DNA of 54,634 bases from an uncultured Pseudomonadota bacterium (lineage in GTDB: Bacteria > Myxococcota_A > UBA796 > SXON01). The stretch is from NCBI GenBank assembly GCA_903921785.1, contig CAIXRH010000160.1, forward strand, positions 1-54,634, written 5' to 3'. This document shows, piece after piece, positions 50,961 through 54,217 of the stretch. A program made the translations under genes and the position numbers. Below the pieces are notes generated by a model. The model ran no database searches. It saw only the letters and a program-made list of their open reading frames with translations, and was not told where the DNA came from. Each line of letters opens with the position of its first letter. The first letter of the stretch is position 1.

Positions 50961-51047
50961 GTTGTCTCCGGAGGGGCGCGCCTCCTATCCGGGGGACGCC
51001 GCGGGGGTGAGCGGGGCGTGTCGACGCTTCGTCGTCAGTTGACCGAT

Positions 51048-51097
51048 GGGGTGCGACCCCCGGGGTGCGACCCCCGGGGTGCGACCCCTGGGGTGGC
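51048..51097. repeat. tandem 14-nt palindromic repeats
   Basis: Three consecutive units GGGGTGCGACCCC(C/T) at 51048, 51062 and 51076 with a partial fourth at 51090. Each unit is an inverted repeat (GGGGT-GCG-ACCCC). The array sits between the divergent hbd and hslO genes and could be a multi-site operator or a set of hairpins. Confidence 0.75.
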
Positions 51098-52084: not shown

Positions 52085-52200
52085 AACGTCCCCCGGGTTG
52101 TGGCTCGGCGGGCGCCGTGGCCGCGGTGCCGGGGGCCGGATGCGGGCGGTGTCGGCGCGGCACCGAGGCGGAGCCGGCCGCGGCCGCCGCGGCCCGCCCC

Positions 52201-52236
52201 GCCATTTTCGCCCCGGCGGTTCCTCGACCGCCGACG
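52201..52236 (+). repeat. REP-like repeat family B, copy 3
   Basis: GCCATTTTCGCCC, then a perfect hairpin CGGCGGT-TCCTCG-ACCGCCG (52214-52233). Similarity to copy 4 continues over about 40 more nt (AAGGACG..CCCTCGC..CGCCC). It lies 3' of the RAYT-like gene. Confidence 0.75.
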
Positions 52237-52330
52237 GTCCGGAGCAGAAGGACGCTCCCCTCGCCTCGCCCCTTCTCATCGCCGTCGCACGCCGCGCACG
52301 GCCGCAGAAGCCGACGGCCAGACCGGGAGC

Positions 52331-52374
52331 CCAAACAACGCCGGGGGTGAAGCGTCACCTGGTGCGTTGTTTGG
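52331..52374. repeat. long interrupted palindrome 3' of the RAYT-like gene
   Basis: 11-nt perfect arms CCAAACAACGC (52331-52341) and GCGTTGTTTGG (52364-52374) enclose an inner stem GGTGA-AGCG-TCACC (52346-52359). It ends 60 nt beyond the RAYT-like stop. It may be a bidirectional terminator or a subterminal hairpin of a Y1-type element. Confidence 0.65.
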
Positions 52375-52434
52375 CCGCGGCCGCCGACGCCCCCGCGGCC
52401 CCCTCCTCGACCGCCCCCCCTCCCCGTCGCGCGC

Positions 52435-53265
52435 TCACCCCTCCGTCGTCCGTGCCGACAGGAACCGCGGCGCGTCCGCCCACGGCACCGGCGCGTCGCC
52501 CGTCGCGAAAGGTCCAGGCGCCACCAGGGGGAATCCGCCCTGAAGCGAGAGCTGCATGCGCGTGGCCCGGAGCAGGTCCTCCCGCGGAGGCACCGCTCGG
52601 AGCACCCGCAGCGACTCCACCGTACGCCCAAGCGCGGCGGCCAGGGCCGCGGGCGCCGCGGGAAAAAGGTGCGCAAGCGCCCGTCGACCGTCGACCGCAG
52701 CGTCGCCACGACCCGAAAGGGGGTCCACCGCGAGCGCCGCCGTGACTGCGGCCAGGGCGGCCTCGACGCCCACCGTCCCGCCCGCCGGGACGAGGTCCGG
52801 CCACCCCGCCATCCTCCGGAGCACCGCCCCATTCACCCGCGGGAGGCACCTTCGCACGGTCGTCAGCAGCGTGCTCCTCACCGCCCGCAGTCCCAAGAGG
52901 TCGGGGAGGGCTCCGTTCTCCCGCCAGGGATCAGGCGCCACCCCGTGCTTCTCGTCGTTCCGCAGCACGTACTCGAAGGTGCTCGTCAGATGCCCCGGGT
53001 CGCGGACCTCCGTGTACCCCACGCACCGAACGCCGCCCGAGACGGCAGGCCGCAGCGCGAGCGTCACCCGCTGCGCCAACCGCCCGGCCTCCACGCGACC
53101 GAGCGCGACGAGCAGGTGTACGTGACCGTCTGACACCTGGAACGCCAGCAAGGGCACGTCCCAGCCGACACGGAGCAACGCCGAGACGACGCGACGCACG
53201 TCCGCGCGAGTGGGTGCGATCGGCGCGGGGCCGGCCGCGCGGAAGACCAGGTGGGTGACCGCCAT
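52435..53265 (-). CDS. Y1/HUH transposase-like protein (RAYT type)
   Basis: A 276-aa protein with the Y1 (IS200-like/REP-associated) nuclease signature in residues 1-110: HUH motif His48-Val-His50 in SDGHVHLLVAL, and the tyrosine helix with Tyr99 in FEYVLRNDEKHGV, equivalent to the YI.LNPVKAGL helix of RAYTs. The C-terminal 160 aa are helical, with a possible DNA-binding segment, and lack a recognised family. ATG 53265 has GGAGG 8 nt upstream. No target-site duplication or IS ends are apparent. The gene is bracketed by hairpins (52331-52374 and 53321-53349) and by opposed family B repeats, supporting a domesticated transposase that could process REP-like hairpins. Confidence 0.68.
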   Translation of the reverse strand: MAVTHLVFRAAGPAPIAPTRADVRRVVSALLRVGWDVPLLAFQVSDGHVHLLVALGRVEAGRLAQRVTLALRPAVSGGVRCVGYTEVRDPGHLTSTFEYVLRNDEKHGVAPDPWRENGALPDLLGLRAVRSTLLTTVRRCLPRVNGAVLRRMAGWPDLVPAGGTVGVEAALAAVTAALAVDPLSGRGDAAVDGRRALAHLFPAAPAALAAALGRTVESLRVLRAVPPREDLLRATRMQLSLQGGFPLVAPGPFATGDAPVPWADAPRFLSARTTEG

Positions 53266-53320
53266 GTGCCCCCTCCAAGCAACCCCAGTGCCATCGGATG
53301 ACCCTGGGCAACTCGGCGCG

Positions 53321-53349
53321 CCGACGACCGTCACGCCGACGGTCGTCGG
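53321..53349. repeat. perfect hairpin 5' of the RAYT-like gene
   Basis: 12-bp perfect stem CCGACGACCGTC / GACGGTCGTCGG with a 5-nt loop (ACGCC), 56 nt upstream of ATG 53265. It could also serve as terminator for the GNAT gene, which ends 113 nt away on the same strand. Confidence 0.65.
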
Positions 53350-53461
53350 GACGTCCGTCACCCACGGTCGGCCCCACGGCCCGCCCCCCGAAGCGCCGCC
53401 CACGTCGGCCCCGCCGCCCCCGCCTCTTCGCCTGCCAGCCCGCCCGGCCGCCGCCCACACC

Positions 53462-54007
53462 CTACCCCCGCCGCGGCGCTCCCCGCCGGAAGATGTACTC
53501 GTGGTCGGACCAGGCGCCCACGGGGAACGCGTACTCGCCCACCTTCGCAAACCCGCGCGCAGCGTAGAACGCCTGCGCCCGGTGGTTTCCCGACCAGACG
53601 CCCAGCCACACCGGGCCGGATCGCCTCGCCCCCAGGTGATCCAACGCCTGATCGAGGAGCCTGGCGCCCAGGCGCAGCCCCTGCGCGCTGCGGCGTACGT
53701 AGAGCTGGTAGAGCTCTCCGTCGTCGGGGTCGACCTGCGGGTGCGGCAGCATGCACGGACCCACGTGCGCATAGCCGAGCAGCTCGCCGTGCCGCTCCGC
53801 CACCCAGGCGGCCTTCGCCGGATCGGCCAGCTCGGCGGCGACTGCCTCGGGGGCGTAGGTCGCCCGCTCGAAGACGGCGAGGTCGCCCGCGGGGTAGGGG
53901 ATGGCGAACCCCTCCTCCAGGAAGGTCTCCCGGAAGGTATCTCGCTTCAACGACGCCAATTCTACGGCGTCATCGAGGGTGGCCACGCGGAGGACGGCGT
54001 CCGACAT
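53462..54007 (-). CDS. GNAT family N-acetyltransferase
   Basis: A 181-aa acetyltransferase that would move an acetyl group from acetyl-CoA to an amine. The core shows the beta4 strand ELYQLYVRRSAQGLRLGARLL (pyrophosphate loop QGLRLG), then VWLGVWSGNHRAQAFYAARGFAKVGE, the family's usual ending. The N-terminal 60 residues start with VLRVATLDDAVELASL. ATG 54007 fits the family start; longer frames upstream are unsupported. Substrate unknown. Located between the RAYT-like gene and family B copy 4. Confidence 0.85.
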   Translation of the reverse strand: MSDAVLRVATLDDAVELASLKRDTFRETFLEEGFAIPYPAGDLAVFERATYAPEAVAAELADPAKAAWVAERHGELLGYAHVGPCMLPHPQVDPDDGELYQLYVRRSAQGLRLGARLLDQALDHLGARRSGPVWLGVWSGNHRAQAFYAARGFAKVGEYAFPVGAWSDHEYIFRRGAPRRG

Positions 54008-54159
54008 CCACCCGCGGTACCTCCGTCGCGGGCCGGGGGCAAGTCCTTCGCCCGAGCGTGGCCGGCTCGCAAAGGAACGGCCCCGGTCGGCGCACCGGCG
54101 CACCGCGGACCACGCTGATGGAAAAGGGCGGCGCGAGGGTACCGTCCTGCGCACGTTCA

Positions 54160-54195
54160 CGTCGGCGGTCGAGGAACCGCCGGGGGGAGAATGGC
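54160..54195 (-). repeat. REP-like repeat family B, copy 4
   Basis: Minus strand: GCCATTCTCCCCC, then the same hairpin CGGCGGTTCCTCGACCGCCG as copy 3, then ACG. Similarity extends down to about 54120 (CCCTCGCGCCGCCCTTTTCC). Opposite orientation to copy 3, so the two point at each other across the RAYT-like and GNAT genes. Confidence 0.75.
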
Positions 54196-54217
54196 GCCGC
54201 GGAGGCCGGCGCCCCGT

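Follow-up and report, generated by a model that had tools for sequence, protein, structure and literature searches.

A divergent RAYT-like Y1 HUH endonuclease gene, its probable palindromic partner and its putative sigma-54-type promoter

Introduction

A transposase-like gene surrounded by hairpins and dispersed repeats raises the question which of these, if any, are its targets, and when it is expressed. Such a gene is found on the 54,634-nt stretch of DNA analysed here (the window). The earlier note had seen in it a RAYT/REP-like system, in which the gene was bracketed by two hairpins and by two opposed copies of a repeat called family B. We arrive at a modified view: the gene would encode a divergent, low-copy and probably domesticated RAYT-like Y1 HUH endonuclease, acting on a different palindrome family, P, and switched on by sigma-54. 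We give this reading a probability of roughly two in three. For RAYT-like proteins, the benefit to the host and the timing of action are open questions.

Results

The 276-aa open reading frame at 52438-53265 on the minus strand carries the H48-x-H50 motif and the Tyr99 that had been claimed for it. In the alignment of 28 family members, whose other sequences share 25-53% identity with the window protein, residues D46, H48, H50, H92, Y99, H107, P142 and R143 are invariant. Sequence searches of Pfam, NCBIfam, PHROGs and the PDB with the window protein returned nothing significant, and some of its relatives gave weak Y1_Tnp or REP_Tyr_transpos matches (best E about 0.0015). An AF2 model built from ten sequences (mean pLDDT 73, poor at residues 113-129 and in the C-terminal tail) showed the strand and helix order of Y1. 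Its top match among PDB structures was 4er8, a RAYT with REP hairpin (E 7e-3, probability 1.00), followed by the TnpA proteins of IS608 and ISDra2. The predicted Y1-HUH fold is well supported despite these modest E-values, because the active-site residues are independently conserved.

The C-terminal part of the protein is helical and HTH-like in profile comparison; HTH_23 matched 15 of the 28 members and stayed below significance in the window protein itself. The earlier note had described a C-terminal extension unlike usual RAYTs. The extension is real, but it is common to the entire family and, judged from sequence, is similar to the helix-turn-helix extension found in RAYTs of subclass 2.1 (TIRYTs). 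A sub-threshold SAVED match over 23 residues of the HTH region (E about 0.02) was judged to be chance.

Two paralogs, 51-52% identical to the window protein, bring the number of transposases of this type in the genome to three, a low copy number with divergent paralogs as is typical for RAYTs. Family members occur in 20 of 58 genomes, comprising the genome itself and relatives of its genus, family and order; over the phylum (284 genomes) they are concentrated in this order, with a few members outside. A scan of named genomes with the single window protein gave no match; with a profile of the close clade, all matches were to records titled Deltaproteobacteria, for the most part MAGs. As the usual Pfam model misses the window gene, families of this kind may be undercounted.

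The interrupted palindrome of 44 nt that had been noticed 60 nt past the transposase stop is present at 52331-52374 (listed without strand), with the arms CCAAACAACGC and GCGTTGTTTGG around an inner GGTGA..TCACC and a DNA fold z of -3.1. It is the gene-adjacent copy of a REP-like family, P, with at least 59 located copies at 26 places of its own genome after de-duplication and further matching places (classical REPs are intergenic and exceed 100 copies); these numbers are lower bounds, taken from genome stretches many of which were chosen for their P matches. The copies, often in 63-bp tandem arrays, are flanked on the 5' side by a conserved GCGGAGG. Their outer stem (CCAAGGAAC/GTTCCTTGG or CCAAACAAC/GTTGTTTGG) hardly varies, and an internal loop with mismatches separates it from the inner stem GGGTGAC/GTCACC. 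The window copy, single locally, has a stem variant and an imperfect 5' flank. Covariation among P copies did not exceed that of shuffles, because the stems are nearly invariant within the genome. A de novo search for repeated long palindromes in 695 kb of the genome returned only a cluster beside one paralog (contig C178) and one other pair; P escaped it because its arms are shorter than the cut-off. Matches in Rfam were all sub-threshold. Repeats kept in relatives without the gene, which the earlier note had named as evidence against a link, were not seen for P: a search of ten congeneric genomes did not find the family. P and C178-type palindromes were also observed at the ends of short contigs of the window genome (e.g. 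C11, C50, C64, C191, C250), so that the assembly probably breaks there and true copy numbers are likely higher.

Different palindromes adjoin other family genes, often several in a row, with local arrays of 11, 6 and 7 copies beside the genes on contigs C90, C1 and C21 of genome G005. The contigs of 22 family genes carry 77 locally repeated palindromes, of which 60 are no farther than 1 kb from such a gene, in 17% of the bases. The copies of an array depend on each other, and a few repeats consist of GC-rich simple sequence, so that a formal p-value for this count overstates the association. Thirteen of the 22 genes have a locally repeated palindrome within 1 kb, and by this strict test none was found for the other nine, the window gene included. 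In genome G006, seven gene-adjacent types have further copies at other places in the genome; several of these types form pairs at a distance of 165-180 bp, with homologous spacers. When 11 genomes of the genus are compared, a given palindrome type stays largely within the genome that has the matching gene subtype. In some relatives, the same palindrome stands on both flanks of the gene. Elsewhere in the window, at 51046-51095, a short tandem palindromic repeat, GGGGTGCGACCCCC, occurs in about three copies between two genes.

We conclude that the most likely REP partner of the transposase is palindrome P at 52331-52374. The proposal of a RAYT/REP-like system thus stands as far as the pairing of a Y1-HUH gene with dispersed palindromes is concerned, also for a lineage outside the gamma-proteobacteria, but its partner is most likely P, and family B is not supported as such.

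The perfect 12-bp hairpin reported before the start is found at 53321-53349, 55 nt from the ATG (z = -3.3). The comparison with relatives places it in a conserved operator-like region, GGGTGACGGACGTCCCGACGACCGTCGGCGTGACGGTCGTCGG (53321-53363, minus strand), in front of a putative sigma-54-type promoter. In many genes of a 12-gene clade (support 99/97), boxes like TGACGGANNTCCGTCA are present near positions -95 and -75, with a spacing of two helical turns; in the window gene, the region that matches these two tandem boxes is degenerate and forms the hairpin. The promoter-like motif itself, TGGCACTGGGGTTGC (53293 down to 53279), is followed by 13 nt to the ATG, the whole block covering 53266-53293 on the minus strand. 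TGGCAC-N5-TTGC with at most one mismatch starts at -28 or -27 in 10 of the 12 clade genes, against a background of 70 matches in 2.49 million strand-bases, or 0.0046 per 163 nt; the remaining two differ at 2-3 positions. The -24/-12 matches of the two paralogs are weak, with 2-3 mismatches. In three members that belong to another taxonomic family, a similar motif stands about 50 nt before the start. TGGCAC-N5-TTGC is the sigma-54 motif (PMC12316311), and the window genome has a single rpoN gene; both are expected of a sigma-54-dependent gene. By the usual spacing, transcription would be predicted to start within about two bases of the ATG. One survey includes transposase COGs in its predicted sigma-54 targets of other phyla; our search of the open-licence literature yielded no RAYT-like gene for which a sigma-54 promoter is described. 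The exact operator box combined with the TGGCAC pattern had no match genome-wide, so that no other regulon members were identified. Another conserved motif of the 12-gene clade, roughly AAACGTAGGTT, lies about 55 to 40 nt before the ATG, between the boxes and the -24 element.

The upstream block could alternatively be the end of an element or an autoregulatory site for the protein's own HTH, which would leave the transposase/palindrome model unchanged. An upstream GGGTGACGG is indeed similar to GGGTGAC, the inner stem of P, and to GGGGWSAS, the motif of TIRYTs, and the family does carry an HTH. We nevertheless find this unlikely, given that the motif is the canonical one for sigma-54 and keeps a fixed position before the ATG in one clade, and one about 50 nt upstream in members of the other taxonomic family.

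Family B is represented in the window by copy 1 at 52174-52236 (minus strand), 171 nt past the hsp33 stop, and by copy 2 at 54160-54214 (plus strand), on the far side of the GNAT gene, 21 nt after the stop of the gene that follows it. The stretches 52200-52233 (minus) and 54163-54196 (plus) lie in opposite orientation inside a 55-nt inverted repeat, 84% complementary. Both copies are thus present as described, but a meaningful bracketing of the transposase gene found no support, as the GNAT acetyltransferase gene at 53462-54007 is enclosed as well. The genome-wide count suggested by the earlier note came out far above chance: in 695 kb, 21 copies had no more than 5 mismatches, versus 0 on the reversed sequence. 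The consensus is about 90 nt long, GG.TG.CGAGGGGCTGG.GGCGC..CACCGGC.TGCC.CCCGGCCG.CGTCGGCGGTCGAGGAGCCGCCGGGGCGAGAATGGCG. With 3 copies in a second sample of about 260 kb, the count corresponds very roughly to 200 per genome. By crude gene calls, the copies are mostly intergenic and their 3' side faces the 3' end of a gene in 18 of 23 cases.

This abundance, the restriction to the window species among the congeners searched and the proximity to P arrays at 8 of the about 25 P places inspected would speak for family B as the cognate REP, with the inverted pair delimiting a REPtron. The link to the gene did not hold, however, and we regard this possibility as improbable. No copy was found beside the two paralogs or, with up to 6 mismatches, in the 3.3-kb loci of four ordinary RAYT-like genes of the same genome. 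Clusters were observed where no such transposase was found, e.g. 3 copies in about 5 kb on contig C25, and most copies follow the 3' ends of unrelated genes. As single-stranded DNA, the consensus folds no better than shuffles (z = -0.4). In the ten congeners, several of them with family transposases, family B was absent at blastn sensitivity except for three short partial matches, so that its distribution gives no tie to the gene family either. We therefore judge family B to be a separate repeat, outside the transposase system. It has CGTC just before the hairpin, as do the CGTC-tagged REPs in the description of PMC3733652; stem and loop sizes differ from those given there, and the likeness is thus a lead only.

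At the 8 P places mentioned, P lies within about 200 bp of family B, in 7 of them on the 3' side of B (contigs C12, C43, C80, C100, C101, C168 and C18, and window positions 52174-52374). The two repeats may simply share gene 3' ends.

Discussion

Active-site conservation, the predicted fold, the gene-side and dispersed palindrome families, the way in which palindrome types go together with gene subtypes and the conserved block resembling a promoter, all read from sequence, are consistent with the following mechanism, in which palindrome P is the substrate. The HUH/Tyr site would nick single-stranded DNA at the cognate bulged palindromes of family P, with the HTH-like C-terminal part aiding DNA recognition, and rejoining after the nick would copy or tandemly amplify the 63-bp unit. 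A transposition event was not observed. RNA polymerase with sigma-54 and an enhancer-binding protein at the upstream boxes would switch the gene on, and the resulting mRNA would be almost leaderless. A signal-dependent promoter type conserved in a RAYT-like family suggests a regulated role. The several gene/palindrome pairs within one genus provide material for specificity tests. The odds seem about even to us that we are dealing with a distinct class of domesticated Y1 transposases, characterized by Y---Q/N and an HTH, by private palindrome families and, in one clade, by control through sigma-54 and an enhancer-binding protein with nearly leaderless transcripts; a signalling pathway would then govern the processing of the repeats.

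The tyrosine motif reads Y99-VLR-N103-D104 (YVLRND) in the window protein and YVLRQD in most relatives. The signature Y---NP, given for class 2 RAYTs in the class descriptions of PMC6006769, is absent from the 28-member alignment, where Y---N or Y---Q stands in its place with a histidine at Tyr+8, nearer to subclass 1.2. For this reason, we do not file the family as class 2 RAYT. It appears to work like a RAYT all the same, with the HUH motif and the catalytic tyrosine in a Y1 fold and its own dispersed palindrome family beside the gene. A GTAG foot 5' of the hairpin was not found, the conserved flank at this place being GCGGAGG.

An ordinary IS200/IS605-like insertion sequence with the flanking hairpins as its ends, which the Y1-HUH fold, a Y---Q/N motif closer to that of class 1 than to that of RAYTs, and the identical palindromes on both gene flanks in some relatives would fit, is the least probable of all readings, since the copies within the genome reach only about 51% identity with the window protein and are not the near-identical mobile ones, bounded by subterminal hairpins, of an active IS, and since the upstream hairpin is unlike the downstream palindrome and kept at a fixed place before the ATG.

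For the RAYT-like reading, the closest comparison is with TnpA_REP subclass 2.1 (RAYT group 1; TIRYTs), as characterized in the relevant sections of PMC6006769 and PMC3733652. Common traits are the Y1-HUH core with a C-terminal HTH (HTH_23, HTH_28 or DnaA_C; HTH_23-like in our family), the low copy number with divergent paralogs, and gene-associated repeats with a motif resembling GGGGWSAS. Unlike our family with its Y---N/Q and its adjacent, often tandem palindromes, subclass 2.1 has Y---NP and is reported without REP-like neighbours; those sections make no mention of a sigma-54-type promoter such as the one of the window clade. With TnpA_Y1 subclass 1.2, as described in PMC6006769, the family shares a Y---Q--HH-like motif (the histidine at Tyr+8 is invariant), D-x-H-x-H and a low copy number. 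The proteins of that subclass, mainly from Cyanobacteria and Bacteroidetes, are however about 148 aa long and lack flanking hairpins, whereas our family members mostly have 250-280 aa, an HTH and palindromes. Class 3 TnpA_Y1, in the same description, resembles the family in its Gln-type tyrosine motif and its REPtron-like setting, where the dispersed hairpins are atypical, but differs by Y----Q, NHVH and a CnGA foot. As for the repeats, P resembles REP, BIME and REPIN elements as a dispersed palindrome, single or arrayed, with a polar 5' flank; its arrays are direct tandem 63-bp units with a GGAGG flank, in contrast to their inverted pairs with a GTAG flank.

In the window genome, the four ordinary RAYT-like genes have Y[IV]HLNP and a longer C-terminal part; by the signatures that Quentin et al. 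give in PMC6006769, they match subclass 2.1. With hhalign, the window family aligned to them over HUH, Tyr and HTH (E 6.7e-6). These four genes (L001-L004, on contigs C252, C184, C21 and C125 of G000) are divergent, have an inverted repeat upstream, e.g. GGGGTCAGGCCGATCGCATT, and resemble the published description of TIRYTs.
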